Assembly (NCBI GenBank): GCA_003151825.1
Contig: PLYO01000022.1
Location: 1 to 64,000, forward strand
DNA: 64,000 nt
Origin: Ignavibacteriota bacterium
GTDB lineage: Bacteria; Bacteroidota; Ignavibacteria; Palsa-1295
Direction of reading: 5' to 3'
The notes beneath the pieces are model-generated. The model was not told the origin of the DNA. It did no database searches and worked only from the letters and a program-made list of their open reading frames with translations. The translations under genes were made by a program, and so were the position numbers. This document shows, one piece after another, positions 1,330 through 54,426 of the stretch (its first letter is position 1; each line of letters opens with the position of its first letter).

Positions 1330-1452
1330 TCAACGTCGTTCTAATAAATGTTTAACGGTTCGCTGCTGTGTACCGGTTCCCATACATCACGGTGAGATGC
1401 GCGCCGTGTACCGCCGAACCTGAAGGTTCGTCCGTGCACTCAATCCACGAAT

Positions 1453-1610
1453 GACAACGCCGTAGGCGTGGCCCGTTTGTAGCAATCGTTATTGCATGGA
1501 AATCCTAAGCTCCGTCAGGAGCGGTCTTTGCGCAGGCCGCTCCTGACGGAGCTTGATCGCTCAAAAAAAATATACTCTTTCTACAAACGGGCCGTCCCTA
1601 ACGGGACTGA
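1453..1610. repeat. Nested palindromic repeat, copy 1
   Basis: Outer arms GGCCCGTTTGTAG (1470-1482) and CTACAAACGGGCC (1581-1593) enclose inner arms AAGCTCCGTCAGGAGCGG (1507-1524) and its complement (1537-1554). The 5' lead ACAACGCCGTAGGCGT is itself partly palindromic. A second copy with the same architecture lies at 6403-6553. The element fills the gap down to the stop codon of the M16 peptidase gene at 1615. An apparent reading frame across it is spurious. Confidence 0.85.
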
Positions 1611-2919: not shown

Positions 2920-4316
2920 TGAAGAAGATCCTCCGGCTTAAGATTGAGTTTATCGAGCGCGGTCTGATTAGTCGTTACGCCGAGCACATACGGTTTTCCT
3001 TCGATCCACCGATTGAGATAGCGGTTAATGTCGGCGCGCGTAACTTTTTTTGCATTTTCGATATAATGGAGATAGTAATCCAGCCCGGCGGAAGCCCACC
3101 AGAGCGGAAGCGAGCTTGTCGCAAACTCCGTTGCGGAAGCCGTTTCGTAAATGCGGTCGCCTTCCATAATGCGCTTGGCGGTTGCAAGTTCGTCGTCGGT
3201 GAAATAATCGGGGTCGGTCCAGTGCGTAATCTCGCCCTGAATCGCCTTGATGGCCTTTTTCGTGGCAGGGATGGGAACGTAAGCATCGATTTGAATCGGC
3301 CCAACATTCTTCTGCGAGAACCATCCAGAGGTGACCTGATACGCGAGCCGTTTATCGACTAACGCTTTTTGGAATCGGCTATTCTTCTGACTGATGATGG
3401 TGTGAAACACATCTGCGGCATAGCTATCCGCGTTGTCTTTGCCGAGACTTGGCCCTTGCCACGTCATGCTAATTTCTGTATAAGGCATCTCGGCCCCTTC
3501 GCGGACGACAAGCTGCTTTTTAATTGGCGGAAACGGCGGCGGATCGTACTTCGGAAACGGCGGAGGGCCTTCGGGCCAAATCTTCGCGCCAAAATATTTC
3601 TCGGCTTGCGCATAGACCTCTTCGGGCTTGACGTCGCCGGCAATAATGAGCGCCATGTTGTTCGGAATATAAAAGCGGTGCTGGATCGTATGCATCATTT
3701 CCGGCGTGGCTGCGAGAATAGCGGGACGCAAACCAAGCTGCTGTTTGCGGCTGAACAGTTCCGGCGACCACACAGCAGAATCCATCGCATAACGCAGCTT
3801 AAAATCCGGCTGCGCTTCGTTGCGGTCGAACTCGCCCAGAACGACGTGCGTCTCTTTGCGAAGCTCGTTCGAATCGAAAAGCGGGGTGCGAATCGCGTTC
3901 GACATGAAGTCCATCCCGCCCGACATGTTTTTATTTGGAATGACGATAAAATAGTTCACATGCTCCTGATGCGTCGCCGCGTTGCTGACGCCAAGCGAGC
4001 CGCCGAGATCGGCAAGGCCCTCCATAAATTGTTCCTGCGAAGGCAATTTTTGGTTCGCCTTGAAGAACATGTGCTCATACAGGTGCGAGAGTCCGTTATA
4101 CTCCTGCGGCTCGGTGAAGCTGCCATTTTTCGCGACCAGCTCGATCGTCACGAGCGGCACCATGTGATTTTCGATGACGATCACATTCAGGCCATTCGAA
4201 AGCGTCTTCTCCACAAACGGCGGGGCTTGCGCGCGCGCGCCGCTCACATTGATAAAAAATCCAAGCGCCAGCAGCGCACTTAAAATGCACAGCCAGCAAA
4301 AACATCTATGAGTCAT
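2916..4316 (-). CDS. M16 family zinc peptidase, catalytic subunit
   Basis: This 466-aa protein has an N-terminal hydrophobic signal ending near GARAQA. The zinc-binding inverted motif HxxEH is present at about residues 78-82 (HLYEH) in the canonical GLSHLYEHM context, with the downstream acidic helix (ETHVVLGEFDRNEAQ) that supplies the third zinc ligand. The length fits M16B. It is the first gene of a two-gene operon with the non-catalytic subunit and overlaps it by 4 bp. It probably degrades or processes peptides in the periplasm. Start choice: ATG at 4316 directly precedes the signal peptide. Confidence 0.9.
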   Translation of the reverse strand: MTHRCFCWLCILSALLALGFFINVSGARAQAPPFVEKTLSNGLNVIVIENHMVPLVTIELVAKNGSFTEPQEYNGLSHLYEHMFFKANQKLPSQEQFMEGLADLGGSLGVSNAATHQEHVNYFIVIPNKNMSGGMDFMSNAIRTPLFDSNELRKETHVVLGEFDRNEAQPDFKLRYAMDSAVWSPELFSRKQQLGLRPAILAATPEMMHTIQHRFYIPNNMALIIAGDVKPEEVYAQAEKYFGAKIWPEGPPPFPKYDPPPFPPIKKQLVVREGAEMPYTEISMTWQGPSLGKDNADSYAADVFHTIISQKNSRFQKALVDKRLAYQVTSGWFSQKNVGPIQIDAYVPIPATKKAIKAIQGEITHWTDPDYFTDDELATAKRIMEGDRIYETASATEFATSSLPLWWASAGLDYYLHYIENAKKVTRADINRYLNRWIEGKPYVLGVTTNQTALDKLNLKPEDLLQ

Positions 4317-4626: not shown

Positions 4627-5823
4627 ATGCTAAATAAAATATCGGTTAAGAATTTTCGGTCGATAAAATCGGCGGAGCTTGAGCTTGCGCCGATTACGGT
4701 GTTATACGGGCCGACGGCCTCAGGCAAGTCGAGTCTTCTGTATGCCCCACTGGTGCTCAGAAACTTCGTGACTAATCCGGGTCAATCAGTTGATGCCTTT
4801 TTCAATCTTGGATTTATCAATCTTGGTGGCTTCGAGTCTTGCATTTTTGACCACGAGATGAATAAGAGCGTTGAAATTTCACTTTCAGGCGAGATAAATG
4901 GAGAGCGGTTATCTTATGGAGTCAGCTTCTCGAAAGACACCGCAGAGATAACAGCGGGATTAGGAGACTTTCAAATGCGGGGCAAGGTGACCCTGCCTTA
5001 CGCTTTGAATCAAAGCTTCCCATTTCCTTTCGTTGAGGACGAAGAAGAATATACTGTCACTTGGAATGGTCTCGCTGTCTCAACAGTGATCCCGAAAACA
5101 GAGACCGATCTGTCTTTGCAAAAAGCCCGAAGTATTGCCGTGCGGTTGAACCAAACATCAGAGTTACTGAATTCACTCGACATCGCCCCGCACCGAAGAG
5201 GTTTTTTTAAACCTCAATATCAAACAACCACGCTTTCTACATTGCCAACTTCGGAAGACGAAGTTGCATCCATTATAATTAACAATCAATATCTTGCCGC
5301 CAAAATTTCACGCTACTCAGAAGAGATCTGCGATCGAGATTTTCGCACGTACACCCTTCCGGGTACACAACAGTATAGGTTCCAGACATCTGATAAAGAA
5401 GGGAAGATCGCCGTTGATATTGTAAACGATGGTTTTGGAATAAATCAAATAATGTATCTCTGGACAAAGATATTGCGAAATGAGGTACGAACCGAGTTGA
5501 TTGAGGAGCCCGAAGCGCATCTTCATCCTTCAATCGTTAGAAGGTTTGCGCGAACTTTGGCGAAATTAGTAGAAGAGCAGGGAAACGAAAAACAGGTCAT
5601 ATTGGCAACCCACTCTGAGCAATTCGTTGCCTCATTACTCGTCGCCGTTAGCGAAAAGATTCTCCCAAGCGGGCACATCCGGTGCTATCTCAGCGACAAG
5701 AGCGGAAAATCCACTACATTTCAGCCGCAAAAGGTGAACGATGACGGTCAAATCGAAGGAGGATTAGTTACGTTCGTCGAATCACAACTGGAAGATTTAA
5801 AGTCGCTTTTCGGAATCAGCTAA
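4627..5823 (+). CDS. AAA/ABC-type ATPase of a two-gene module
   Basis: This 398-aa protein belongs to the RecF/SMC/OLD-like AAA_21 group. It starts MLNKISVKNFRSIKSAELEL, the usual first strand-helix, then Walker A GPTASGKSS at about residues 33-41. At the C-terminus are Walker B/signature LIEEPEAHLHP and the switch-like ATHSEQF. Family members couple ATP binding and dimerisation to a partner nuclease. The start at 4627 was chosen because the family N-terminus begins there; further upstream the frame encodes unrelated residues. The next gene, 5 bp downstream, encodes a PIN-like protein, so the pair is probably one operon. AT-rich composition and isolation between repeats suggest acquisition. 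A defence role is inferred by analogy with OLD/Gabija/PARIS-type ATPase-nuclease pairs. Confidence 0.85.
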   Translation: MLNKISVKNFRSIKSAELELAPITVLYGPTASGKSSLLYAPLVLRNFVTNPGQSVDAFFNLGFINLGGFESCIFDHEMNKSVEISLSGEINGERLSYGVSFSKDTAEITAGLGDFQMRGKVTLPYALNQSFPFPFVEDEEEYTVTWNGLAVSTVIPKTETDLSLQKARSIAVRLNQTSELLNSLDIAPHRRGFFKPQYQTTTLSTLPTSEDEVASIIINNQYLAAKISRYSEEICDRDFRTYTLPGTQQYRFQTSDKEGKIAVDIVNDGFGINQIMYLWTKILRNEVRTELIEEPEAHLHPSIVRRFARTLAKLVEEQGNEKQVILATHSEQFVASLLVAVSEKILPSGHIRCYLSDKSGKSTTFQPQKVNDDGQIEGGLVTFVESQLEDLKSLFGIS

Positions 5824-6402: not shown

Positions 6403-6553
6403 TGACAACGCCGTAGGCGTGGCCCGTTTGTAGAAACCGTTATTCGCATAGAATCTTAAGCTCCGTCAGGAGCGACCTTTTTAGGCCGCTCCTAACGGAG
6501 CTTGCTCGTTCTAAAAAACCGCATTTCTACAAACGGGCCGCTGCTAACGCAGC
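6403..6553. repeat. Nested palindromic repeat, copy 2
   Basis: This has the same architecture as 1453-1610: outer arms GGCCCGTTTGTAGA (6421-6434) and TCTACAAACGGGCC (6526-6539), inner arms AAGCTCCGTCAGGAGCG (6458-6474) and CCGCTCCTAACGGAGCTT (6486-6503). The first 30 bases are shared with copy 1, while the loops differ. The surrounding 6303-6744 gap otherwise holds a smaller palindrome at 6675-6717 and the promoter region of the gene at 6745. Confidence 0.85.
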
Positions 6554-6674: not shown

Positions 6675-6717
6675 GAGGTCGGGCTGGAAGCCGCATCGTG
6701 GGCGATGCGTCCGACCT
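6675..6717. repeat. Small palindrome in leader region
   Basis: AGGTCGG and CCGACCT arms enclose GCATCGTGGGCGATGC, giving a two-step hairpin. It lies in the leader of the gene starting at 6745, just after an AAAGGAGGT stretch that looks like a strong Shine-Dalgarno site but is about 66 bases too far upstream to serve that start. The working ribosome site for 6745 is more likely AAAGGA at 6730-6735. Confidence 0.4.
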
Positions 6718-8801: not shown

Positions 8802-9779
8802 CTACCACCCTGCGGCTTTCAACTCTGCCCTTACCCGAAGCGAATTCACAAGCTCTGAAATTTTTCCAATTTTTTGATCGCGCATAAATTCAGCGAGGCC
8901 CTCGGCTACACGAACGCCGGCATCGGGATAGACGAAATTCGCGGTGCCGACCTGCACCATGTCCGCGCCGGCGATGAAAAATTCAACGGCGTCTTCGACG
9001 GTAACTATTCCGCCCATGCCGATAACTGGAATTCTACATGCTTTTCGTGCCTGATACACTTGCGCCAGTGCAATGGGCTTTATCGCCGGGCCGGAAAGTC
9101 CGCCGGTGACAGTGTTCAGCCGAGGCTCATGCGTGTAAATGTCAATCGACATGCCGACGAGGGTGTTGATGAGGCTAACGGCGTCGGCGCCGGCGCGTTC
9201 GCACGCCTCAGCGAATGGCGCGACGCTCGTGACGTTCGGCGTGAGCTTTATCATCAGAATGCGATCCGTCGAGGCGCGGAGCAGCGTCGTCAGTTCTTCC
9301 GTCCGCTCGACGCTCGTGCCGAAGGAAAGGCCGCCATCTTTTACATTCGGGCAGCTAATGTTGATTTCGTATCCCGCGAGATTTTCCACCGCGTTCGCTT
9401 CGATATGTTCCAGCACATCGCGGTATTCTTCCATCGAGGAAGCCGCGATGTTGGCGATGATCTTCGTATCGAACTTTGCGAGATAGGGAAGTTTTTCTTT
9501 AACGAACGTATGCACGCCGACATTCGCCAGCCCAATAGAATTCAGCATTCCGCTCGCCGTCTCGATAATGCGATGCGGCGGATTGCCCATGCGCGGCTTC
9601 CAGCTAACGGACTTCGTGACCACGCCGCCAAGCTGCTCGATGTCGCACCACTGCTTTGCCTCTGCGCCATAGCCGAAGGTCCCGCTCGCGACGAGAATGG
9701 GATTTTTAAATGTGACAGTGCCGAGCTTAACGCTCAGATCAGGCGTAACCATGCCGTTTGTCGCAGCAGAGTTTTTCAT
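8802..9779 (-). CDS. pyrD: Dihydroorotate dehydrogenase, catalytic subunit (class 1B)
   Basis: The 325-aa TIM-barrel flavoprotein oxidises dihydroorotate to orotate in pyrimidine synthesis. Family motifs visible in order are: FKNPILVASGTFGYG near the N-terminus, NSIGLAN, the catalytic-loop NISCPNVKDGG with the Cys that marks class 1 enzymes, LMIKLTPNV, SLINTLVGM, GGLSGPAIKP, and the FMN phosphate site IPVIGMGGI...GADMVQVGT. A PyrK partner encoded immediately upstream makes this the NAD-dependent class 1B form. ATG at 9779 overlaps the pyrK stop (ATGA), which decides the start over longer open frame upstream. It is the third gene of a minus-strand operon with the TPR lipoprotein and pyrK. Confidence 0.95.
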   Translation of the reverse strand: MKNSAATNGMVTPDLSVKLGTVTFKNPILVASGTFGYGAEAKQWCDIEQLGGVVTKSVSWKPRMGNPPHRIIETASGMLNSIGLANVGVHTFVKEKLPYLAKFDTKIIANIAASSMEEYRDVLEHIEANAVENLAGYEINISCPNVKDGGLSFGTSVERTEELTTLLRASTDRILMIKLTPNVTSVAPFAEACERAGADAVSLINTLVGMSIDIYTHEPRLNTVTGGLSGPAIKPIALAQVYQARKACRIPVIGMGGIVTVEDAVEFFIAGADMVQVGTANFVYPDAGVRVAEGLAEFMRDQKIGKISELVNSLRVRAELKAAGW

Positions 9780-10618
9780 AGCACGATTTCCTCCGCGTTG
9801 AACGATGGCCCCTCGGTGCAGACAAGTTTGAAGCGGCGTCCGCTTTGTAGAAAGATCGATTCCTCGGTCTGGACCGGACATCCCTGGCAAATTCCAATGC
9901 CGCAGGCCATTTCCGTTTCGAGGCTGAGTTCGCATGGGATTCCGAATTCCGCTGCGAGCGATTGCGCGGCGCGCATCATAGCTGTCGGGCCGCAAGCGAA
10001 AATTTTTGGCGATTCAATCGGACCACCAGCATGATCGCTCATGCTTCCTGCCACCTCCTTGAAAAGGAGAGGGTCTAAAAATGTCCGCAAGAGTTCCACA
10101 TTCGAGCCATGGTAACCTTCGGAACCATCGTCGGTCGCGATATGAAGATTCGAAAGATGGTCTTTCGCGATAAGCGATGCGGTGCGCGCTCCATAAAATG
10201 TTTGGACTGGAATTTCTTCCAATTCGAGCGCGCGCGTGAGCATTGGCATCGAAGCTACGCCGACACCGCCGATGAGCAGCACGGCGGTAGCGTAATCCGA
10301 TGACTGATACATCCACGGCTTGCCAAGCGGACCCAGAATGTCAAGCATTTCCTCCTCTCGCGTTTCGGCGAGAATGCCGGTTCCCCGGCCATGTGCTTGA
10401 ACGATGATTTCGGCTTCGTTTTCATCCGCCCAATAGACGGAGAAGGGCCGGCGCAGCATCGGGTCGCCGAAACCCGATTTTGGCAGCACATTCACAAATT
10501 GCCCTGCGAGAGTCTCACGCGCAACACGGGGGTTATGAAAACGGAGCGTAACTAATCCCGGAGCGATCACGCGGCGCTTGGTGACAAGGGAACGTTCGGA
10601 GAGATGTCGATCGGGCAT
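9776..10618 (-). CDS. pyrK: Dihydroorotate dehydrogenase electron-transfer subunit
   Basis: This 280-aa FAD and 2Fe-2S protein passes electrons from PyrD to NAD. The N-terminal barrel binds FAD (RRPFSVY). The middle Rossmann part has LLIGGVGVASMPML. The C-terminus carries the iron-sulfur cysteines C-x4-C-x2-C (ACGIGICQGC) and a last Cys in KLVCTEGP. The start at 10618 overlaps the stop of the upstream lipoprotein gene by one base, and the stop overlaps pyrD, so the three genes are translationally linked. Unusual: residues about 182-204, just before the conserved FACGPTAMM, contain DPLLFKEVAG plus a short extension. This is encoded by a palindromic element also found inside the gene at 13175 (see findings). 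It lies in a surface-loop position of the family. Confidence 0.95.
   Translation of the reverse strand: MPDRHLSERSLVTKRRVIAPGLVTLRFHNPRVARETLAGQFVNVLPKSGFGDPMLRRPFSVYWADENEAEIIVQAHGRGTGILAETREEEMLDILGPLGKPWMYQSSDYATAVLLIGGVGVASMPMLTRALELEEIPVQTFYGARTASLIAKDHLSNLHIATDDGSEGYHGSNVELLRTFLDPLLFKEVAGSMSDHAGGPIESPKIFACGPTAMMRAAQSLAAEFGIPCELSLETEMACGIGICQGCPVQTEESIFLQSGRRFKLVCTEGPSFNAEEIVL
10046..10075. repeat. In-frame palindromic element inside pyrK
   Basis: Read on the minus strand, this is GACCCTCTCCTTTTCAAGGA plus GGTGGCAGG. It matches by eye 26 of 29 positions of the start of the element at 14139-14241. In both cases the palindrome core CTCCTTTTCAAGGAG is read in the same frame to give PLLFKE. 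It is probably a truncated or eroded copy. Confidence 0.6.
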
Positions 10619-13014
10619 TACGGTGGCGGGCCGGGCACAACCGGCGTGGGTGGTTGCGGCGGGTTCGGCACAATGTGCTGGATCGGAGGTATAGGAGGTT
10701 GCTGAGCGCCCGGCGGTAGTGTCGGCAGTGGCGGCGGCATGCCGGGCCTCGGAGGCATATTGGCCGGATGTTGTCTCACTCCAGGAATGGTCTGAGGCAT
10801 GGACTGCTGGGTACCATCGCCGGGAGGGGTGGACGATGGATCGTTCGTGATAGTCGGATTGACGGCCCGTCCCGGCGAGTGTAGCAAACTCGGCGTACTG
10901 GCGTCCGCAAAGCGCGGACGAAGCGCAAGCGCATAAGAAGAATACGGATAATCCTTCAGAATTCGCTTGTAATAGGCCAGCGCGCTGTCGTATCGGGGTA
11001 CTTCTTCATAACTTACGCCGATGGCATAGAGCGAGCGTGGCGCGACATCCTCCTGCGAAAAATTGGTAACGACTTGGAGCAGCGCCGGTTTTGCGGCCGC
11101 CACCCCGCTATCCCGAAGGGATTTATAGGCGCCCAGATAGGCCAGTTCACTCGGTGAATTGCGAGTGGTCTTGACGTAAAGGATGCGCGCTTGCTCCGCG
11201 AACATTGTTTGGCCGTAATGCGCGAGCAGTTCGTGCAGCAGCGAATCCGCCATGACCTGATTTTTTTCCTGACGTTCAAGCTCGATCCAGGCATAGAGCG
11301 TTTGCGCTCGGAGGGCCGTTCTACCAGTGTCCATGGGACCAATGTTCATGCTATCGGCCTCATGGTATTCAGCGCGGGCCTCGGGAATTTGGCCGAAGGT
11401 CTCATATGCACGTCCAATCTGATAGTGGGCTGTTCCGGCGCGGAATTGAAGGCTGTCGAGGAAATGGGCCGTATCGGAAATAACCAATTTCTGCGGCGCC
11501 TTTTGCTTTAGCCGCGCTTCGGCTTCCCGAACGCGAGTGGAATCCATCTTCGTCATCTGGGCCGGCGCTGCCGGATTCCAGCGTGTGCCAAGCACTTCCT
11601 GTAAGGCTTGCAGATGAAAATTCTCGTCCTCGTTTTGGCCGGGAACTTTGATGTCATGCCGGTGAGTCGCTTCGCTTTTCTTGATCGCTGCCTCCAGCGT
11701 GTCGATGTGATCCAGATCCCGCCGCCACTGTGAATAACTTATGAGCGAATTTGCCCGGTCGGAGACATACTCGTTCATCGCGGGCGAGGAGAAGTCCTTC
11801 GTGCCAATGAGTGAGGTAGCCGCGCGCGCGGCGGAATCGTAAAGACCCATCTCGCGATAAATCTCGGCTTGCCGGAATTTGACACGTGAAAGGATGGGCG
11901 CGCTCGAACTCTTATAGGTTGTGTCGAGCGCAAAATACTCGGCGTGCATCGGGTGCTCATAGTTGTCGCGGAATGCCGTGGACCGGAGATCGTTGCCCAC
12001 GGCTTTGCGGGCGATTAGCTCATCGGTATAGGCAAGCTCGAAGCGCGCTGCGGCTTGCGAGCCGCCATATTTAGCGAGATGAGTAACGAGCGCCAGTTCG
12101 GTTTTCGCCGCGTCTAAATTTCCTTCTTCGCGGAGCGCGAGCGCGTGGGCCACGCGGCCTTCGCCGGCAAGCCAATCGTCCTTCGCGGCATTGGATGTTG
12201 TTTGGAACGCGCGTTCGGCATTGGCCCAATCGCCGTTGATGTACTCGACCGCGCCTTCCTGGTAGGCCAGCCGCGCAAGTTCCTCGCCCTGCATACCCGC
12301 TTCCGCCTTATGGAGTTCGGCGGCGATGGCCGCGAGCGAATCAGGATTTTTTGCGTAGATAAGTTCCGCCATCGCGCGATGGACGGTCGATGCCACGGCG
12401 GGGTCGTTGGACTCCGTGGCAGCAAGCCCGCGTTCCAGCGTCATCGCCGCAGTATCGATGTCATGGTTGACGAGCATCGAGCGAGCGAGATACACTTGTA
12501 CCTGCGCGCCATATTTTGTTTGTGGGTAATTCGTCAGGAGTTCGTGAAACTTCCGTTCCGCGCCGATAAAATCGTTCTTATAAAACTGCGCCTTGCCGAC
12601 GATGAAGAGCGCGTCCTCTTTATATTTTGTCGCTTTTTTATCCGCGAGGATTTTGGAACCGAGAATGATCGCGGAATCGAGGTGGACGTTGGTGATTTGC
12701 TTGGTAGCGCTGAGCGATTGCGAAAAAGATGGCGTGATCGGCTCGACGCTCCCCGCGTGCAGCCCGACCTGGCGCATGAGATACTCTTCATCGAGCCAGC
12801 GGTGGTTCACAACCGCAACTGCGCCATTCGGATTTTGCGCAACGATGATGCGCTGCTGCGCCTCATACGCCTCTAAATGGGTTTCGGCAAGATAGACCGT
12901 GTTGTAGTACGTCGAGAAATTGTTCCACCATGCGCAGCCCGAAAAGGCTGTTGCACCGGCAAGAAATGCCGCCGCAAGCGTTAACGAAAGAGTCGTTCGT
13001 GGATGATGAAGCAT
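10618..13014 (-). CDS. Large TPR outer-membrane lipoprotein (SprE/PorW-like)
   Basis: This 798-aa protein has a lipoprotein signal peptide (lipobox FSGC, Cys about residue 26). The start of the mature part, CAWWNNFSTYYNTVYLAETH, recalls the YN-rich N-terminus of the T9SS/gliding lipoprotein SprE (PorW). The body is helical with many TPR-like pairs (ALFIVGKAQFYKNDFIGAE, YAIGVSYEEVPRYDSALAYY), about 700 residues in all. The last 60 residues form a Pro-rich low-complexity tail (PPRPGMPPPLPTLPPG). SprE/PorW links the T9SS ring to the motor complex; given the many T9SS cargos in this window that role is plausible but inferred. The gene leads the operon with pyrK and pyrD, an odd pairing of envelope and nucleotide genes. 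Confidence 0.75.
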   Translation of the reverse strand: MLHHPRTTLSLTLAAAFLAGATAFSGCAWWNNFSTYYNTVYLAETHLEAYEAQQRIIVAQNPNGAVAVVNHRWLDEEYLMRQVGLHAGSVEPITPSFSQSLSATKQITNVHLDSAIILGSKILADKKATKYKEDALFIVGKAQFYKNDFIGAERKFHELLTNYPQTKYGAQVQVYLARSMLVNHDIDTAAMTLERGLAATESNDPAVASTVHRAMAELIYAKNPDSLAAIAAELHKAEAGMQGEELARLAYQEGAVEYINGDWANAERAFQTTSNAAKDDWLAGEGRVAHALALREEGNLDAAKTELALVTHLAKYGGSQAAARFELAYTDELIARKAVGNDLRSTAFRDNYEHPMHAEYFALDTTYKSSSAPILSRVKFRQAEIYREMGLYDSAARAATSLIGTKDFSSPAMNEYVSDRANSLISYSQWRRDLDHIDTLEAAIKKSEATHRHDIKVPGQNEDENFHLQALQEVLGTRWNPAAPAQMTKMDSTRVREAEARLKQKAPQKLVISDTAHFLDSLQFRAGTAHYQIGRAYETFGQIPEARAEYHEADSMNIGPMDTGRTALRAQTLYAWIELERQEKNQVMADSLLHELLAHYGQTMFAEQARILYVKTTRNSPSELAYLGAYKSLRDSGVAAAKPALLQVVTNFSQEDVAPRSLYAIGVSYEEVPRYDSALAYYKRILKDYPYSSYALALRPRFADASTPSLLHSPGRAVNPTITNDPSSTPPGDGTQQSMPQTIPGVRQHPANMPPRPGMPPPLPTLPPGAQQPPIPPIQHIVPNPPQPPTPVVPGPPP

Positions 13015-13174
13015 GGCCTTTTTTGCTAACGCCCTGAAAAATTACTTCGTTCGTGAGAGGGGCGCACCATAGCCACTCTACGGCAAATCTTTGTAATTGT
13101 TGTATTTTTGTATGAAATAACTCCATTTTCATTAATAGCCCGTGCCGGTTCCAATGCAAAGACGCGAAAACTCC

Positions 13175-16078
13175 ATGAACGAGCTTCGCCTGTTCGTCTC
13201 CTCGACGTTCCGCGATCTCATGCCCGAACGCGAGCACCTCGTGAAAAAAGTCTTCCCGCGCATTCGGAAAGAATGCCGCGCGCGCGGAGTGGAATTCACC
13301 GAGATCGACCTCCGGTGGGGCATCACCGAGGAAGAATCGCGCTCCGGCAGGACCATCCGGATTTGCTTAGAAGAGATCGATCGCTGCCGTCCCTATTTCA
13401 TTGGCATTATCGGCACACGCTACGGCTGGATACCGGGCATCACCGAGATCGAGAAAGACGAGGAAATGCTTGAAGAATTTCCCTGGCTGCGCGACTATGC
13501 TGCTGGCGAAAAAAGCATTATCGAGATGGAATTCGCGCATGGGGCGGTGTTGCAGAAAAACGATTCGGCGTTTTTTTATGAGCAATATGGGACGGATGCA
13601 ACGAATGCGACGGATGGGCCGCTCAGCGATCTGAAAAATAGTCTTCAATCATCTGGATCTCCCTATCGCCGCTTCGCGGCTCCTGATGAGCTTGGAGAGC
13701 TTGTTTTTCAGGACATCCTCACCATTCTCGATCGCGATTTCCCGATCAGGAAGGATCTGACGCCGCTCGAACACGAACGCATCGAGCACGAAGCGTACGC
13801 CTTAAACCGGCGTCAATCCTATGTTGCGAATCCTGCATATTACGATGCCTTCGCTAAGCATGTCGAGTCCGATGGCGCGCCGCTAATCATCTGGGGAAAA
13901 TCGGGTTTGGGCAAGAGCGCGCTCATGGCGTATCTCGCGCATGAATATCAATTGCGGAATCCGGATGCATTCGTAGTTCAGCATTTCATCGGCGCGGCAG
14001 AAGGCAGCGATCCCGAAGACGTGATGCGCCAGATAATGATGGAAATCAAAGAACGCTATGGGCTATCGGACGCCATCCCCTCGGACGATAACGCACTCCG
14101 TGAGGAATTTCCGGTCTGGCTGGCGAAAGTGGGACGGAACCCCCTCCTTTTCAAGGAGGGGGCAGGGGGTGGTTATTCCCCAGCAGCGGGTCAACCACCC
14201 CCCAACCCCCGCCTTGGAAAGGCGGGGGAGTCTGGGGAGAAACTTGTGCTTTTGATCGACGCCCTGAACCAACTCACCGACATTGCGCCGGAAATGCACT
14301 GGCTGCCGGAGTTCTTTCCCGCGAATGTTCGCCTCATTGTTTCGACTACAGAAGATAGCCTTCCGCTCGAACAATTACGCAAGCGAAATTGGCAGGAGCT
14401 GGAACTTCAGCCGCTCACCGAAACGCAGCGAGAATCCATCGCTCGCGAGTTCCTGAATCGGTATAGCAAGGTGCTTGATTCGGGCGATCTTCACACACTT
14501 TCCGCTAATCCCAAATCGTCGAGTCCACTATTTCTACGGACGGTGCTCGAAGAGCTGCGCATTTTCGGGCATCACCGATCGTTGCACGACGAGCTTGAGG
14601 ACTATCTCTCAAGCGCGGACGAGCGCGAGCTGTTCCAAAAAGTCCTCGCTCGGATGGAGCGCGATCATGGCGCGGAAGCCGTGCGCGATGTCATGACCGC
14701 GATCTGGGCCTCGCGGCATGGGCTTTCGGAAGTGGAACTTATGGAAATTACCGGCATGTCCCGCATGGCGCTTTCGGAACTGATGATCGCGATGGAATAC
14801 CACCTCATGCAGCGCGAGGGATTCCATACCTTCTTCCATAATTATCTGCGGGAAGCGATTCAGTTACGCTATCTGCCGGCGGAGCAAGACCAAAAGGCCG
14901 CGCACGCCCGTTTGGGAACATATTTCTCCACGCAGGATTATGGCCACCGAAGGCGCGACGAAGAACCGTGGCAATGGAGCGCTGCCGGCGATACCGATTC
15001 GCTGTGGAAGAGCTTTGCCGATCCCGGCATGTTCATGCTCTTCGCCAACGAGGATCAACGTTATCACTTTATTGCCTATTTGCAGTCGTTCGAACGCGAG
15101 CGAAGTTTTGCGCTCTTTGCCTCGCTCCATAAGGCGATGCAGCGCGATGACGAATACGACCGCCGTCGCTGGCTTGCGCAAATTGCGCGCGAGGGAGCGT
15201 TCTTCGATGCCGCTTCGGAGATTCTCACGGCTATTGCGGAAGCAGCGTTGCACACGCCGCTCGACGACAAAACCTCGCTCGATTTCAAACGCGAGCAGGC
15301 GCAGCTTTATGCCGAGAAACAGGAATATAAGCTTGCACTTCCGCTCTGCGAGGAGATTGTTTCGATCATCGATGCGAAGCAGGGACGAAGCGCGGAGCTA
15401 TTCGATGCTCTCCTCGATCTTTCCACAGTGATGCACGGTCTTGGCGATTATGCCGGCGCCGAACGCTTCATTCGCCGCGCAATTGAATTTAGTGAGGTCA
15501 TATCGGAATCGAGGCGGATAGATGCGATGCTAAATCTGGCGGCGATTGTCCTTGCACAGGGGAAACACGATGAAGCGGTCAGACTATTCGAACAAACGCT
15601 TGAACTTTCCAACAAATTACTCGGGAAGATGCACCCCGCTTCGCTGCATTGTTCCATCAATCTCGGAGCAGCACTCATTTTTGCGGGAAGGTTCGCTGAT
15701 GCGCTCAAAATTTTAGAGGTGGCATTGCCGACCATTAGAAATACGCTCGGCGACAAGCATGCATGGTATATCGCATGCCTTACGAGTATTGGAAGAATAC
15801 TTACGGAAACCGGCGAATATGACCGGGCCGAACGAACCATCCTGGAACTGATAGATAAATCGACTTTATCGCAGGGAGCCGAAAGTGAGAACACGCTTCG
15901 CTCGCGGATCAGTCTCGGGCACGTTTACCGTCTCAAGGGTGATCTTCAAAAGGCGCTACCACTCTTCGAAACATCGCTTCCGCCCCTTGTGGACCGTCTT
16001 GGAATGGACCATCCGTATATTATCCGCACTAAGGAGAGAATCGCGGAAATGTCCTCCGCGTTTTACGAAAAAACGTAG
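13175..16078 (+). CDS. DUF4062-NACHT/STAND-TPR protein
   Basis: From ATG 13175 the protein is 967 aa. Residues 1-110 form a DUF4062 domain (LRLFVSSTFRDL, FTEIDLRWGITEEE, FIGIIGTRYGWIP), the TIR-like module also at the head of eukaryotic NPHP3/TEP1-type proteins. Next comes a STAND/NACHT ATPase with Walker A GKSGLGKS (about 241-248), Walker B LVLLIDALNQL (Asp about 362) and a winged-helix-like part (GLSEVELMEITGMSRMALSELM). The C-terminal 300 residues are TPRs (GDYAGAERFIRRAIEF, GKHDEAVRLFEQTLEL). This architecture is typical of NLR-like bacterial defence or signalling proteins, where the TPRs sense a ligand and the N-domain acts on oligomerisation. Residues 322-355 are an insertion encoded by a palindromic repeat. 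GTG 13142 and ATG 13154 are alternative starts. Confidence 0.85.
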   Translation: MNELRLFVSSTFRDLMPEREHLVKKVFPRIRKECRARGVEFTEIDLRWGITEEESRSGRTIRICLEEIDRCRPYFIGIIGTRYGWIPGITEIEKDEEMLEEFPWLRDYAAGEKSIIEMEFAHGAVLQKNDSAFFYEQYGTDATNATDGPLSDLKNSLQSSGSPYRRFAAPDELGELVFQDILTILDRDFPIRKDLTPLEHERIEHEAYALNRRQSYVANPAYYDAFAKHVESDGAPLIIWGKSGLGKSALMAYLAHEYQLRNPDAFVVQHFIGAAEGSDPEDVMRQIMMEIKERYGLSDAIPSDDNALREEFPVWLAKVGRNPLLFKEGAGGGYSPAAGQPPPNPRLGKAGESGEKLVLLIDALNQLTDIAPEMHWLPEFFPANVRLIVSTTEDSLPLEQLRKRNWQELELQPLTETQRESIAREFLNRYSKVLDSGDLHTLSANPKSSSPLFLRTVLEELRIFGHHRSLHDELEDYLSSADERELFQKVLARMERDHGAEAVRDVMTAIWASRHGLSEVELMEITGMSRMALSELMIAMEYHLMQREGFHTFFHNYLREAIQLRYLPAEQDQKAAHARLGTYFSTQDYGHRRRDEEPWQWSAAGDTDSLWKSFADPGMFMLFANEDQRYHFIAYLQSFERERSFALFASLHKAMQRDDEYDRRRWLAQIAREGAFFDAASEILTAIAEAALHTPLDDKTSLDFKREQAQLYAEKQEYKLALPLCEEIVSIIDAKQGRSAELFDALLDLSTVMHGLGDYAGAERFIRRAIEFSEVISESRRIDAMLNLAAIVLAQGKHDEAVRLFEQTLELSNKLLGKMHPASLHCSINLGAALIFAGRFADALKILEVALPTIRNTLGDKHAWYIACLTSIGRILTETGEYDRAERTILELIDKSTLSQGAESENTLRSRISLGHVYRLKGDLQKALPLFETSLPPLVDRLGMDHPYIIRTKERIAEMSSAFYEKT
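14139..14241. repeat. Palindromic element inserted in frame in the NACHT gene
   Basis: Two hairpins, CCCCTCCTTTTCAAGGAGGGG and CCCCCGCCTTGGAAAGGCGGGGG, are joined by complementary GGGGGTGGTT / AACCACCCCC arms. The unit of about 102 bp is open in the reading frame of the host gene and encodes a Gly/Pro-rich stretch of about 34 residues between Walker A and Walker B. Elements of this build are normally intergenic. Confidence 0.85.
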
Positions 16079-16155: not shown

Positions 16156-16265
16156 TTCCCAGGGTTCCGCGCGCATCGTTGCCGATGCTTGCTCCACCCT
16201 GGGCTATTTATCGAAAAATCCTCTCGGTTATTAGCCCAGGGTGGAGTGAAACGGAACCCTGGGAA
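16156..16265. repeat. Large nested palindromic repeat
   Basis: Outer arms TTCCCAGGGTTCCG (16156-16169) and CGGAACCCTGGGAA (16252-16265) enclose inner arms CTCCACCCTGGGCTA (16192-16206) and its exact complement (16232-16246). It lies between the convergent genes ending at 16078 and 16341 and could act as a bidirectional structured spacer. Confidence 0.85.
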
Positions 16266-21504: not shown

Positions 21505-23616
21505 TCAAAGCGCATCGAGGCGCTGCGTAACGTCCTCAAGTATTTTCGTGGCTTTCGTGACGGCGCGAATGAGCTCGATGGTCGCACGATTTGCCTCATA
21601 CCCGTTTTTGCCGCGAAATGCAACGCTGAGCGCCGGAAGTTCGAGATCGGCATAGCCATTATCGGGATCGGCGAGGACAAGCATATTCCGTTCCCATTTA
21701 TCGAAGAACAATCCCTCCGGCGCAGTGAAGGCAAATCCGACGGATCGCAGTAATTGGTTCACCGAATCCGCAAGCGCAGGATTTTGAATGAGAGGAGAAT
21801 TTTCTGAAAGTCCTTTTTTGTCGCGCGCTTCGGTAAATTGTTTGCTCGCGGCTATCAATGTGTCGATAACGTTTTCGAGAGGCCCGAAACCGGAGGAATC
21901 GTGCATGTTTTTCATTGCGAGAACTTTTTCATGCTGCACGGCAGTGAGAAGCCACTGTCCCAGCGCGGTAAAATTGAGTGGCAGCACATCGGCATTGGCA
22001 AGGCGCATCGCTTCGACCGCCGCAAATTGCGAAGATGCCGCGTGATACCGAAAACTGGAATCGCCGAAGTGCATTGTCCACCCGATGTTATCGTGATTGG
22101 AATGATACTGCCCGAACGGCCCGCCAAAGCCATGTTCCAGCGATGGAATTCCGAGGTGATTGTAAAAAGCCGAGAAATCGCTCCCGCCGCCGAGAAGCCC
22201 GATCTCCGGTTGCGCCACCTCACCATCTCTTTTCGGAGCACGCTCCATCCATTTATCATAGACTGGGTTCCCACTCCCATCCAAAACCGATTTACTTACT
22301 TCATACACGAGAGAGCGCAGCATTGGATCGGCTCCCGCCGAGAACGAAGTACCCGTCGCGCACTCATCCTGATTGATATAGGCGATAGCTTTTGCGCCGA
22401 GTTCCTTCTCCAATTGCTCGACCCACTCCGTCGAGCCGAGGAGCCCCCATTCTTCCGCATCCCACGTAACGAACATTACCGATCGCTTCGGACGAATTCC
22501 TTCCTTTTGCAGTTTCGCAAATGCTTCTGCCGCCGCGACGGAACTCGCGCAGCCCGAGGCATTATCCTCCGTTCCATAGCACCAGGCGTCGCGGTGTCCG
22601 CCAATGATGATCCACTCATCGGGCCAAGTCGAACCCTGGACAGTCGCGACGGTATTCCATATTGGCTTCAATCCCGTATCGCATTCGACGTGCAGCTTTA
22701 CCTGCACACTCCCTCTATTCGTTCCTTCGATGTGATAACGAAACGCAAGGCCGCCCTGCCAGCTCGAATTCGGAATATCGTGACCGTGCATTGTGCCGAG
22801 AATTTCCTGCGCGATACCATAGGAAATTGGAATGACGGGAATTTTTGGAGTAGGATACATCGAGTCCGCCGAAACACGCCGGGCTCCGGGAACCGAAGCG
22901 TAGCCGGGGGTGGTCGGGTCGCCGTGGCCGTTATAAACGCTGCCCCGTTGCACGCCGCCGCTCGAACGCATCGGGCCGGCGGGATACACGTCCCCTTCAT
23001 CATAGCCATCGCCGGAGGGATCGGAATAAATGAGCAGCCCCGCCGCGCCATGCAGTTCGGCAAGCTGCGCCTTGATGCCTCGGTAACTTTTGCCATATCG
23101 CGCAATCACGATCTTGCCCTTCACGCTGATATCCAAGCTGTCGAGTACATGATAATCCTCATGAAGGCCATAGTTCACATAGACTACATCGCCGCTTACC
23201 GTTCCCGGCGCGGAATAGCCGTTGACCCACGGATACTCTTTGCCATCCGGGTCGAATGCCGTTTTATCTTCATGGAGATCGAATGTTTTCTTTACCGGAG
23301 CGAGCATTTCGAGCGAAGAACTTTTTGCAAGCGGAATATCGACTTCGTAAGGATACACCTTCGTCGAAAGCCCCGCTTTTTTCCAACGGTTTAGGACATA
23401 ATCTCGTGTGACGGCCTGGGCAGGAGTTCCGGCAACGTGAACTTCTTTGCTGATCGCGGTAACGATGGCGCGGAGTGTATCGGGCTTTATTTCATCCACG
23501 AGCCGCTTTTCGATAGCAAGCTCGGCGCGTTGGCTTGCGGGACTAAAGCCCGTCATTTGTGCCCGCGCAATCGTAGGTGAAATCGCTGCGAGAACCCAAA
23601 GGATTACGAACATCAT
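21505..23616 (-). CDS. M28 family metallopeptidase (glutamate carboxypeptidase II-like)
   Basis: This 703-aa exported peptidase starts at ATG 23616 (or 23613), directly before the signal peptide MFVILWVLAAISPTIARAQ. It contains a PA-type insert (about 150-250, with GLLIYSDPSGDGYD), then the M28 core. The two-zinc ligands are visible in order: GGHRDAW, GTEDNASG, WDAEEWG, NQDECAT and YHSNHDN. A C-terminal helical domain like the transferrin-receptor dimerisation region follows. It removes N- or C-terminal residues from peptides in the periplasm or outside. The upstream open frame is translated from a palindromic repeat and is not part of the protein; the repeat abuts or overlaps the start codon. 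Confidence 0.9.
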   Translation of the reverse strand: MMFVILWVLAAISPTIARAQMTGFSPASQRAELAIEKRLVDEIKPDTLRAIVTAISKEVHVAGTPAQAVTRDYVLNRWKKAGLSTKVYPYEVDIPLAKSSSLEMLAPVKKTFDLHEDKTAFDPDGKEYPWVNGYSAPGTVSGDVVYVNYGLHEDYHVLDSLDISVKGKIVIARYGKSYRGIKAQLAELHGAAGLLIYSDPSGDGYDEGDVYPAGPMRSSGGVQRGSVYNGHGDPTTPGYASVPGARRVSADSMYPTPKIPVIPISYGIAQEILGTMHGHDIPNSSWQGGLAFRYHIEGTNRGSVQVKLHVECDTGLKPIWNTVATVQGSTWPDEWIIIGGHRDAWCYGTEDNASGCASSVAAAEAFAKLQKEGIRPKRSVMFVTWDAEEWGLLGSTEWVEQLEKELGAKAIAYINQDECATGTSFSAGADPMLRSLVYEVSKSVLDGSGNPVYDKWMERAPKRDGEVAQPEIGLLGGGSDFSAFYNHLGIPSLEHGFGGPFGQYHSNHDNIGWTMHFGDSSFRYHAASSQFAAVEAMRLANADVLPLNFTALGQWLLTAVQHEKVLAMKNMHDSSGFGPLENVIDTLIAASKQFTEARDKKGLSENSPLIQNPALADSVNQLLRSVGFAFTAPEGLFFDKWERNMLVLADPDNGYADLELPALSVAFRGKNGYEANRATIELIRAVTKATKILEDVTQRLDAL

Positions 23617-23712
23617 TGCGAGGAGTCCCGGAGGGACGACGACGCAATCCGTTGAGATTACAGTTGCTCTCACGGGATTGCTTCGTCGCTCCTTCGTCGC
23701 TCCTCGCAATGA
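23614..23712. repeat. Palindromic repeat overlapping a start codon
   Basis: CATTGCGAGGAGTCCCGGAG and the facing CTCCTTCGTCGCTCCTCGCAATG form the ends; GCAATCCGTTGAG / CTCACGGGATTGC form the inner arms. This is the widespread ATTGCGAGGAGCGACGAAGCAATCC type of bacterial palindrome. Its left end supplies the CAT that is the start codon (minus strand) of the M28 peptidase gene. Confidence 0.8.
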
Positions 23713-23757
23713 CGTTCTTGAAAATGGACTAATCAGAAGTTCCTAAAATCGGGATGG

Positions 23758-25641: not shown

Positions 25642-25703
25642 TGTAGCGCAAACTTTAGTTTGCGATCCGAGCGCGACAATCGCAAACTAAAGTTTGCGCT
25701 ACA
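25642..25703. repeat. Perfect palindrome between rplY and pth
   Basis: Two 24-bp arms, perfectly complementary (TGTAGCGCAAACTTTAGTTT plus GCGA, and its reverse complement at 25680-25703), enclose a 14-base loop. Each arm is itself palindromic (GCAAACTTTAGTTTGC). The right end stops two bases before the pth start codon, so the hairpin would cover the position of its ribosome-binding site. Confidence 0.9.
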
Positions 25704-49149: not shown

Positions 49150-49213
49150 GTAGGGGCGCATGGCAATACGCCCACAGCCCTGACAAATTGGGCGCATTGC
49201 CATGCGCCCCTAC
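49150..49213. repeat. Palindrome spanning a gene end
   Basis: Arms GTAGGGGCGCATGGCAATAC (from 49150) and its near-complement ending ATTGCCATGCGCCCCTAC at 49213 enclose a short loop. The right arm contributes the TAG stop codon (49210-49212) of the gene on the minus strand, so the element either inserted at the very end of that gene or replaced its original stop. Confidence 0.85.
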
Positions 49214-51732: not shown

Positions 51733-51736
51733 ACTA

Positions 51737-53083
51737 ATGAAAAAAAAAACTATCTTTTTCGCGCTCCTCGCAAGCCTGGCGTTTTCGTCAGGCTTGCGGG
51801 CGCAATACCGTTGGCACATCGTGTATTCGAATCATGTCGATAGTACTTATTACGGATTCCAAACTATTTCTTGCTTCGGAGAAAACTGCTCTGTAGCGGG
51901 CGATTTTCAGGCCGCTATTGAAAAGCCAGATTCCGAATTTATTATTCACAGCACCGATGGGGGTCTGACATGGATATCAGTGGACTCCATACCGCAAGTA
52001 ATGTTGTACCCTCGCTGGGGTGCTCGTTTTTACTGGTATAAAATTCAACAGATTGATTCCCTCGACGCCATTGCAGTGGACGAACTCGCCGGCGCGATTG
52101 TTCAGACGTTCGATGGCTGGCAAACGTTTCAAACCGACACGACTAATAGCGTTCAACTCACGGTTAATGGCCAAGACACCACGTTCAGCGGTGGATATTA
52201 CGATGTCAATTTTTCGAATGCGGCTGAAGGAATGCTAAACGGGGGGTTTGGATTTTATTATTCCACCTTAGACTCCGGGAAACATTGGGATAAGCTAATT
52301 ACGAATAATGCCGCCGCGTTTCACTCTTATGGCAGCGGCATGTTTCGCGTTTTCGTTCCGCCGAATAAGATTTTAACAACCTACGACGATTGGAGAACTT
52401 TGGATACGTCCTTGATCGTACTTACCGATTCCATCGAAAGTTCCTTTTTCGTTCCCCAATTTCTGACCTTTGGAGGTAACGATTCCTTAGTGATGCTGAG
52501 TTTGCATTTTGATTCGACGATGACGCATTACTCCCTTTCGATCGCGATCTCTTCCGATTTGGGACAGAACTGGCAGTACCCGCTCCACGATACTGTTGCA
52601 TTAGATCCCCTCACCATATCTCCTTTAAGCAATCGTATGATTGCGATTGCGGGCGAAGATTCCTCTGGACGAATCGTCATGAGCACGGATCAAGGAGCAA
52701 CGTGGCATGTCTATTCCGTACCTCTCGATAACGGCGTATCTTATTATTCAATTATCAGTGTAGCTGTGACGGGATCGGGGCGTGTCATTGCGTCCATTCA
52801 GGTGGACAGTAGTTCAGATGGTTCCGTGCTTGCCTATTTAGAGCCTGTTCCTTCCAGCGTGGTGCCTACACTGTCTACGCAACAAAATTTAACACTTTAT
52901 CCGAATCCGGCAACGAATATACTTAACATCGCACCGCCATCCGGAACGATTTCCATTCTCGATCCCCTGGGCCGCAGCTATACCGTTCCAGGAAATGGCG
53001 ATGTGCGCGATGTTTCCTCGCTCCCGCCCGGCGTGTATTTCGTAAGCGATGGCGCAAGCCGGGCGAAGTTTGTGAAGAAATAA
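51737..53083 (+). CDS. T9SS-exported BNR-like protein, paralogue 1
   Basis: This is 448 aa from ATG 51737, which puts the signal peptide (KKKTIFFALLASLAFSSGLRAQ) at the N-terminus. The body is a propeller with Asp-box-like and Ycf48-like motifs (HSTDGGLTWISVDSIPQV; DELAGAIVQTFDGWQTF; YYSTLDSGKHWDKL). The C-terminus is a short type A sorting tail (LYPNPATNILNI, ISILDPLGRSYTV, PPGVYFVSDG, FVKK). It is a tandem duplicate of the next gene. It probably sits on the cell surface after T9SS export; ligand unknown. Confidence 0.88.
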   Translation: MKKKTIFFALLASLAFSSGLRAQYRWHIVYSNHVDSTYYGFQTISCFGENCSVAGDFQAAIEKPDSEFIIHSTDGGLTWISVDSIPQVMLYPRWGARFYWYKIQQIDSLDAIAVDELAGAIVQTFDGWQTFQTDTTNSVQLTVNGQDTTFSGGYYDVNFSNAAEGMLNGGFGFYYSTLDSGKHWDKLITNNAAAFHSYGSGMFRVFVPPNKILTTYDDWRTLDTSLIVLTDSIESSFFVPQFLTFGGNDSLVMLSLHFDSTMTHYSLSIAISSDLGQNWQYPLHDTVALDPLTISPLSNRMIAIAGEDSSGRIVMSTDQGATWHVYSVPLDNGVSYYSIISVAVTGSGRVIASIQVDSSSDGSVLAYLEPVPSSVVPTLSTQQNLTLYPNPATNILNIAPPSGTISILDPLGRSYTVPGNGDVRDVSSLPPGVYFVSDGASRAKFVKK

Positions 53084-53088
53084 TTCCA

Positions 53089-54426
53089 ATGAAAAAAAGC
53101 ACTATCTTCTTTGCGCTCCTCGCACTCCTGATGATTTCATCGGGAGCGCGGGGCCAATATCGTTGGCACATTGTGTACCCTGATCTTGTGGATTCCCCCT
53201 ATAACTTCAATAGTGTTTCATGTTTCGGAGAAAACTGTTCCGTGGCAGGTTCAGCACTGATAGGTGCTGGTAATGCGATACGCGATACCAGTTTTATTAT
53301 TCACAGCACGGACGGGGGTTTGACCTGGAATTCTGTTGATGCTATTCCGCAAGTAATTCTTCACCCTCACGGGGGCGCTTATTTTGTCTTCGATAAAATT
53401 CAACAGATTGATTCCCTCGACGCCATTGCGGTGGACGAACTCGCCGGCGCGATTGTTCAGACGTTCGATGGCTGGCAAACCTTTCAGACCGATACTACCA
53501 ATAGCATCGATCGCGAATATTACGATGTTGATTTTTCGACACCAGCCGAAGGCATGCTAAACGGGGGGTTTGGATTTTATTATTCCACCTTAGACTCCGG
53601 AAGACATTGGGATCAGCTCATTATAAATCATGGAGTCGCCTTTCATTCATATGGCAGCGGCATGTTTCGCGTCTTTGCTTCTCCCGATACGATTTTCACC
53701 ACTTATGACGATTGGAGAACGTCGGATACGTCCTTGATCGTACTTACCGATTCCATCGAAAGTTCCTTTTTCGTTCCCCAATTTCTGACCTTTGGAGGTA
53801 ACGATTCCTTAGTGGTGCTGAGTTTGCATTTCGATTCGACGATGACGCATTACTCACTTTCAATTGCAATCTCTTCAGATTTAGGACAGAACTGGCAATA
53901 TCCCCTTCATGATACCGCCGAATTATATCCTACCACAATATCCCCTTTGAGCAATCGCACGATTGTTATTGCTGGTGAAGACTCCTCTGAGCGTATTGTT
54001 ATGAGTACGAATCGAGGAGTTTCGTGGAATGTTTATGCGGTACCCCTTGAGGATAGTATACCTTATTATCGGATTCTGTCGGTTGCTGTGACGGAATCGG
54101 GCCGTGTTCTCGCCTCCGTTAGAACCGATAGTAATGGGGGTGATTATAGCCTGCTCGCATATTTGGAAACGGTTCCATCGAAAGTGAACGAAAGTACCGC
54201 TTCTCAAACTGATTTTGAAATTTACCCCAATCCTGCAACAAATATTCTTAATCTCATATCGCCATCCGTAACGATTTCCATTCTCGATCCTCTTGGCCGC
54301 GGCTATGAGGTAAAACAAACCGGCAACACGCTGGATGTCTCCTCGCTTCCGACGGGCGTGTATTTCGTGAGCGATGGCGGGCGCACCAATGCTGCGCCAA
54401 GTCGGGCGAAATTCGTGAAAAAATAG
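53089..54426 (+). CDS. T9SS-exported BNR-like protein, paralogue 2
   Basis: This 445-aa protein is co-linear with paralogue 1 over its whole length: signal peptide (FFALLALLMISSGARGQ), YRWHIVYPD opening, the same Asp boxes, the same DDWRTSDTSLIVLTDSIESS segment, and a T9SS tail (IYPNPATNILNL ... TGVYFVSDG ... FVKK). It differs most at the first loop and near the tail, where a short GRTNAAPS insertion precedes the last residues. It starts 6 bp after the first copy and ends 5 bp before the convergent histidine kinase gene. Confidence 0.88.
   Translation: MKKSTIFFALLALLMISSGARGQYRWHIVYPDLVDSPYNFNSVSCFGENCSVAGSALIGAGNAIRDTSFIIHSTDGGLTWNSVDAIPQVILHPHGGAYFVFDKIQQIDSLDAIAVDELAGAIVQTFDGWQTFQTDTTNSIDREYYDVDFSTPAEGMLNGGFGFYYSTLDSGRHWDQLIINHGVAFHSYGSGMFRVFASPDTIFTTYDDWRTSDTSLIVLTDSIESSFFVPQFLTFGGNDSLVVLSLHFDSTMTHYSLSIAISSDLGQNWQYPLHDTAELYPTTISPLSNRTIVIAGEDSSERIVMSTNRGVSWNVYAVPLEDSIPYYRILSVAVTESGRVLASVRTDSNGGDYSLLAYLETVPSKVNESTASQTDFEIYPNPATNILNLISPSVTISILDPLGRGYEVKQTGNTLDVSSLPTGVYFVSDGGRTNAAPSRAKFVKK

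Follow-up and report, generated by a model that had tools for sequence, protein, structure and literature searches.

The stretch of DNA analysed here (the window, 64,000 nucleotides) comprises positions 1 to 64,000 of contig PLYO01000022.1 and belongs to the draft genome GCA_003151825.1 of an Ignavibacteriota bacterium (3.59 Mb in 51 contigs, 98.39% complete, 6.57% contamination). Two unrelated genes within it, one pyrK-like and the other encoding a DUF4062-NACHT-TPR protein (Table 1), carry copies of a short palindromic repeat that lie in open frame, and this repeat and its other copies in the genome are the subject of the analysis. The genome is referred to below as G000 and was compared with its congeners; G001 to G008 and G027 are likewise genome labels, and L-numbers are locus labels.

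Positions 10047-10074 and 14139-14166 were found to be inverted copies of one sequence (28 nt, 93%), and a 17-mer search allowing up to 3 mismatches gave five matches at four places in the window, where 0.18 were expected. The peptide PLLFKE can be read from both copies, each within an open frame, as had been claimed in the original prediction made from the letters alone. The 15-residue PyrK insert is real, being present in none of the 13 relatives aligned (the best named matches of the protein, at 66-73% identity, came from two Bacteroidetes, one Ignavibacteriae and one Candidatus Kapaibacterium metagenome-assembled genome), and it is more extensive than first described, as its second hairpin and GGTGGT end had been missed; the same two-hairpin form recurs in L161 at 4633-4677. 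To judge by these named matches, the lineage of G000 is probably Kapabacteria-like. In the NACHT protein the additional residues, 32-33 in number, were correctly placed between what we take to be the Walker A and Walker B motifs, and the inserted element turned out to consist of two facing units. Of nine homologues aligned, seven have this site without the insert, an eighth holds a shorter version and the ninth the complete one. Folding of the NACHT pair gave a hairpin of very high stability (-66.9 kcal/mol, z -5.5). A search of positions 9500-15500 against Rfam returned nine matches, all below the gathering score, eight of them to microRNA hairpins on the NACHT pair, and a known RNA family for the repeat was rejected on this basis.

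Table 1. Host genes and inserted elements in the window
Feature	Position	Strand	Remarks
Host gene 1, pyrK-like, dihydroorotate dehydrogenase electron transfer subunit	9776..10618	-	PF10418; relatives aligned
PyrK insert, whole	10022..10075	-	adds 15 residues
PyrK insert, hairpin 1	10052-10072	-	followed by GGCAGG link
PyrK insert, hairpin 2, AGCATGAGCGATCATGCT	10028-10045	-	AGCATGA-GCGA-TCATGCT
PyrK insert, GGTGGT end	10022-10027	-	
Host gene 2, DUF4062-NACHT-TPR protein	13142..16078	+	PF13271, PF05729, TPRs; orthologues aligned
NACHT insert, unit 1	14140..14174	+	hairpin CCCCTCCTT-TTC-AAGGAGGGG, then tail GCAGGGGGTGGTT
NACHT insert, unit 2	14193..14229	-	faces unit 1; hairpin CCCCGCCTT-TCC-AAGGCGGGG, then tail GTTGGGGGGTGGTT

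Structure and distribution of the repeat

The genome-wide search for the core that the original prediction had proposed revealed a dispersed family. With the 21-mer CCCCTCCTTTTCAAGGAGGGG and up to 3 mismatches, G000 gave 77 forward and 82 reverse matches and the reversed control none. After two one-base-shifted duplicates had been dropped from the 108 places found, this corresponded to at least 106 units in at least 89 elements, including 14 pairs and one group of four; these counts are a lower bound, as copies with other loops are missed, and the shares given below refer to the 89 elements found. The unit is about 35 nt long and comprises a 9-bp hairpin (arms CTCC/GGAG or CGCC/GGCG) with a variable loop, followed by a G-rich tail (GCAGGGGGTGGTT). 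Among 87 aligned units with a recognisable tail, conservation was confined to about -5 to +34 of the 21-mer and was almost nil beyond these limits. Some units contain a second hairpin, sited between the first hairpin and the tail end. One such hairpin, GCATCG-TCGG-CGATGC, occurs in 53 exact copies (reversed control 0) and stands beside the ~35-nt unit at five loci; another, AGCATGA-GCGA-TCATGCT, is found in PyrK and L161.

The family is most abundant in G000. The strict unit-plus-tail pattern occurred in nine of 395 genomes of the phylum (G000 included), a sample that did not hold all congeners, with 27 forward and 19 reverse matches in G000 and no more than four in any other genome. The core 21-mer, again with up to 3 mismatches, was present in 19 of 61 genomes including G000, representing nine genera, and a genome from outside the taxonomic family (G027) had as many as 10 forward matches; isolated matches of this kind mean little, because the reversed control also matched in five genomes.

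Copies inside genes and their reading frames

A codon model, for which 216 long open reading frames (ORFs) served as training set, was used to classify the elements, an element being called internal where it lay in an open frame that was coding on both sides. By this measure 35 of the 89 elements were internal, 14 lay near a gene end, 17 had coding sequence downstream only, three contained the end of the frame and 20 lay between genes. A single profile match, in some cases below the curated cut-off, also spanned 18 of the 35 internal elements, and the NACHT element, one of the 35, was spanned by orthologues. The hosts named by profiles included transketolase, glucose-6-phosphate isomerase, phosphoglycerate kinase, exopolyphosphatase (two copies), CoaBC, ArgJ, Kbl, RsmH, HutH, NadA, a RarA-like ATPase, ribulose-phosphate epimerase, a biotin carboxylase and CarA. 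Ferrochelatase (L147) and a PurL-like protein (L151) were internal by the model, yet their copies lay where the profile match begins or close to the end of a contig. A profile, an orthologue or a second test placed ten further elements inside genes, namely those in PyrK, RsgA, MTA nucleosidase, HutI, methylmalonyl-CoA mutase, an NAD-binding domain, MnmE (the group of four), an EamA protein and two secretion-sorting-domain paralogues (one scanned), giving 45 of 89 elements inside open frames. The MnmE group consists of four tandem units (L130, 4024-4152) that are open within the TrmE_N domain region. By rough arithmetic from the coding fraction, which was 0.876 for the window and 0.825 for the elements' own loci, copies per kb were about 4.6-6.9 times rarer inside genes than elsewhere, where 'elsewhere' includes the gene-end elements; frame and stops alone would predict about 3.6 times.

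The original prediction had likened the repeat to the palindromic elements of Rickettsia on the grounds that one reading frame is kept in unrelated hosts. The two window copies do agree in frame, and this proved not to be a rule for the genome. There were 31 internal single units, of which the 26 with a clear tail fixing their orientation were used and five were left out. Five frames were represented among them: sense frames s0 (6), s1 (8) and s2 (6) and antisense frames a0 (4) and a2 (2), with none in a1. The three sense frames were used alike (chi-square p 0.82), and the sense to antisense ratio of 20:6 compared with an expected 3:2 (p 0.11). The absence of a1 is no test, because the commonest loop gives TGA in that frame and the internal class required an open frame. 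A same-frame rule is ruled out by these counts, and because five frames are in use the agreement between PyrK and NACHT is chance as far as single units are concerned, the probability that two copies agree being roughly one in five. Genomic copies in random frames had been named in the original prediction as a refuting result, and for the claim of a kept frame this result was obtained. Pairs were read as s0 with a0 in the window, at L140, L145 and L163, in the L130 group and at L184 of G002; the pair in RarA of G006 is an exception, and selection for this combination is no more than a possibility.

Thirteen of the 54 non-internal elements are flanked to left and right by coding sequence of a single strand and marked candidate split genes. 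Four were open through, four lay between genes of different families (L121, L154, L162, L166), two (both in L170) stood at the ends of genes distinct from their neighbours and three (L118, L158, L160) had no profile match and were undecided. None of the 13 was shown to be a gene broken by an out-of-frame copy, and no copies with stops inside genes, which the original prediction had named as contrary evidence, were seen among them, the three undecided cases aside. The L170 copies, at 4016 and 5686, encode the last residues of their ORFs, with the stop overlapping the next start (ATGA) at what are coupled gene junctions. Their neighbours (DUF4062-AAA then TPR, and TPR then TPR, in different frames) had been considered as broken genes, an idea ruled out by the congener ORFs: because the same ORFs are separate, repeat-free genes in G001 and G003, the L170 copies are gene-end extensions.

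Sites occupied in G000 had empty counterparts in relatives for PyrK, NACHT, Tkt, RsgA, CarA and RarA. In a structural model of PyrK (14 sequences, mean predicted local distance difference test score, pLDDT, of 80) the insert, at about residues 182-199, was modelled with low confidence (block means of 73 and 57) as a helix followed by a loop, preceding the strand 204-209. The NACHT model (10 sequences; mean pLDDT 82, predicted template modelling score 0.55) contained only two segments below pLDDT 50, one being the insert (323-351) and the other residues 140-144, a loop that holds partly decayed copies in G001, G003 and G006. Relatives differ in length at the CarA, RsgA and RarA sites, that in CarA lying in a length-variable linker. 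The examined sites are thus mostly length-variable or low-confidence loops.

Insertion sites shared with congeners

At the NACHT site the pair is present in G000 and G003, one unit is present in G001 and none in G005, G006, G007, G008 or two paralogues of G000; G004 has a short unrelated stretch. The state in G001 would result if the two AACCCCC stretches had recombined in a deletion that kept the frame. Where G000 and G003 have the same residue, its third position agrees in 22 of 22 cases within the units and in 328 of 661 elsewhere in the gene; in unit 2 two further residues differ, and the spacer has diverged. The decayed copies at the second site of the NACHT gene (G001, G003, G006) indicate that not every copy is maintained. 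There partly decayed copies retain the residues without the full palindrome, which corresponds in part to what had been named beforehand as contrary to the idea of a tolerated palindrome and is as expected of an ageing tolerated insert.

Other sites are also shared. A copy in CoaBC is common to G000 and G006 and the site is without it in G004, and in a CCG-domain protein and at a DUF559-RNase HI junction copies occur at one site in two species each; third-position identity of the flanks at these three sites is 45-53%. In G000 a palindrome joins the DUF559 domain to RNase HI in one open frame, and G004 aligns across the junction (L152 3670-4554, L279 2151-3023). The RarA loop is empty in G004, contains different hairpins with a similar tail in G002, G001 and G000 and a facing pair in G006, and holds a different insert in G003, which by eye resembles a remnant of a third repeat family (GCATCGTGGGCGATGC), and an unassigned stretch in G005. 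Overall, hairpins were kept or swapped at several congener-shared sites at which the flanking third positions are 45-55% alike. The RsgA gene of G006 (L259) has a different insert, PTHPNPLPKAEGN, at the loop of the G000 insert; it possibly represents another repeat family.

Three processes could account for this conservation or exchange of hairpins: gene conversion, repeated insertion, and selection acting on the hairpin. A tentative reading, which we put forward as possible and do not favour, is that coding sequences of core enzymes act as long-term docking sites, where a hairpin captured in a loop might be renewed or swapped in place and so stay palindromic despite divergence that has left the neighbouring third positions only about half identical; the different in-frame hairpins in the RarA loop and the third positions of the NACHT units are the observations behind it. 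If so, any of the three processes could bring about the renewal, with the dispersed copies as partners in gene conversion.

Known repeat systems and competing explanations

Palindromic elements of Rickettsia (RPE) were reportedly described by Ogata et al. in 2000 and 2002. Nearly half of the first RPEs lay within ORFs (PMC10969869), an RPE-bearing guanylate kinase is translated and active (PMC2229807), and in-frame palindromes in genes were known also from Wolbachia (cited within PMC2229807). An in-gene share of about half is therefore not new in itself. The G000 repeat resembles the RPEs in being a palindromic repeat in frame within unrelated conserved genes (PMC2229807, PMC10969869), but differs in its length, about 35-90 nt as against 105-146 bp (PMC2229807), and in its Kapabacteria-like host lineage. 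As to repetitive extragenic palindromes (REPs), the GTAG and CGTC superfamilies treated by Di Nocera et al. (2013) consist of 20-40 bp hairpins occurring in many copies, as dimers and in groups, features that the G000 repeat also has; most members lie between genes, some lie within ORFs of core proteins (most of these in O. terrae and R. conorii), where they are possibly neutral in linkers or loops, and the CGTC repeats are not tied to transposase genes (PMC3733652). These REPs carry GTAG or CGTC at one end and are mostly intergenic (PMC3733652), whereas the G000 repeat has a G-rich tail, is untagged and lies in genes in about half of cases; it belongs to the same kind of element but to neither of these sequence classes. 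Facing hairpin pairs in many copies are likewise typical of REPs in bacterial interspersed mosaic elements (BIMEs) and of REPIN doublets with their REP-associated tyrosine transposases (RAYTs; PMC3116915, PMC2817692), but the G000 repeat had no adjoining Y1-transposase gene in 20 loci and is frequent in genes. The enterobacterial miniature inverted-repeat transposable elements (MITEs) RU-1/2/3 (Delihas, 2007) are also small mobile repeats found in frame in annotated genes, but measure 103-168 bp and belong to another lineage (PMC2759123).

No prior description of the G000 repeat was found in the literature covered, a search outside which most subscription journals lay; on Kapabacteria and palindromes it gave one unrelated paper, and on Ignavibacteria the 10 of 155 papers listed had nothing on the repeat. 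The phenomenon is a known one; the repeat family and its long-lived shared landing sites look new. What goes beyond a new example is that empty, single, double, decayed and swapped states occur at the same core-gene loops in close relatives. The original observation was right in essence and its analogy with RPEs apt, in that a dispersed palindrome is tolerated in frame at sites that orthologues have without the insert; the argument from a conserved frame was wrong.

The repeat is very probably a non-autonomous family of REP- or RPE-like character that has multiplied in this lineage and is tolerated as a translated peptide in flexible loops. Spread was most likely REP-like, given the lack of coding capacity of its own, the hairpin units and the facing pairs. 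Short palindromic units, single, paired or with a second hairpin, would multiply, most of all in G000, and land both in genes and between them. A copy in a gene would survive, translated as an extra peptide, where the frame is kept, no stop is introduced and the loop is flexible, and other in-gene insertions would be lost along with their bearers. Some copies would then persist through speciation, their hairpin preserved or replaced in place.

If the repeat were instead cut out of the mRNA or bypassed during translation, frame and stops would be irrelevant; one copy does lie between the RsgA motifs HTT and DTPG, which we take to be conserved GTPase motifs, and the stability of the NACHT hairpin could be cited for such a mechanism. 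However, decayed copies keep the frame and no broken gene emerged among the split-gene candidates (not a clean test, as the internal class required an open frame), so that we regard removal or bypass as very unlikely. Slightly less credible still is that PLLFKE is a functional protein motif that chances to be encoded by a palindrome. The same peptide in two unrelated proteins and the prevalence of s0 with a0 in in-gene pairs (G006 RarA excepted) would fit this, but elsewhere the same DNA gives the peptides PPFQGGG, PSFSRRGQGVV or PLLEKEG, most aligned orthologues are without the insert and many copies lie outside genes; the frame counts largely refute it. An assembly or binning artefact, which the fragmented draft and its contamination might suggest, can practically be dismissed, the same or a related insert being present at the same site in other assemblies (NACHT in G003, CoaBC in G006, RarA in G002, G006 and G001).

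The Y1_Tnp family includes RAYTs, and G000 has six Y1_Tnp matches at five loci. Together with the REP size, the pairs and the tandem group, this would accord with a classical REP family that owes its mobility to a RAYT encoded in the same genome (a REPtron). None of the Y1-transposase genes in 20 loci, including all six G000 matches, was flanked by the repeat, only the core palindrome being sought, and a transposase may act from elsewhere; the sole match, a degenerate one, was at the edge of L210, about 2.6 kb from the gene. The genes at two of the five G000 loci carry their own, different hairpins on both sides, and column counts of the 87 aligned units revealed neither GTAG nor CGTC next to the stem. 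A link of the repeat to RAYT-type genes was accordingly rejected for want of an adjoining copy in the 20 loci, and a REPtron appears unlikely.

Several observations weigh against a tolerated, mobile repeat as we propose it. No transposase was tied to the repeat among the 20 Y1-transposase loci, and no target-site duplication could be made out, the occupied and empty sites being too diverged or rearranged. The remainder of the 35 internal elements, apart from those spanned by profiles or orthologues, are placed in genes by the codon model alone. Net gains, measured against orthologues or solved homologues, ranged from 2 to about 33 residues: PyrK and HutH had gained 15 residues each, transketolase 14 (against five congeners) and biotin carboxylase 12, with 6-8 in RsgA, Kbl and Rpe and only 2 in PGK for a full 36-nt unit. 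Because a full unit amounts to about 12 codons, several events, those with smaller gains, replaced host sequence. Finally, the identical third positions of the NACHT units exceed what passive tolerance predicts.

Palindromes that code for protein were described first from Rickettsia and later from some genomes rich in REPs. The present lineage is far from both, and here about half of the copies lie in genes, many of them for core enzymes. Pairs of sites before and after insertion would let the cost of an insert peptide, and the spread and persistence of a repeat, be measured directly.

Other repeats were noted in passing. The third dispersed palindrome, GCATCGTGGGCGATGC, occurs in the window at 6693-6708, in L144 at 3731 and in L160 at 2221, and at two of these three places it lies within GGTCGGGCTGGAAG..CCGACCTACG. 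Window positions 1452-1600 and 6403-6546 are near-identical repeats with nested inverted repeats TAGGCGTGGCCCGTTTGTAGAAA and AAGCTCCGTCAGGAGCG, perhaps a further dispersed family. Inverted repeats with arms of 23-50 nt, unlike the ~35-nt family in sequence, are found at 23608-23717, 25642-25703, 49150-49213, 250-351 and 16192-16246. A long tandem array with a 63-nt unit (a multiple of three) occupies 55128-56354, with 14 and 17 overlapping windows in two families, and at 61448-63472 and 51736-54379 there are repeats 270-282 nt apart, together with a block duplicated about 1.33 kb away.

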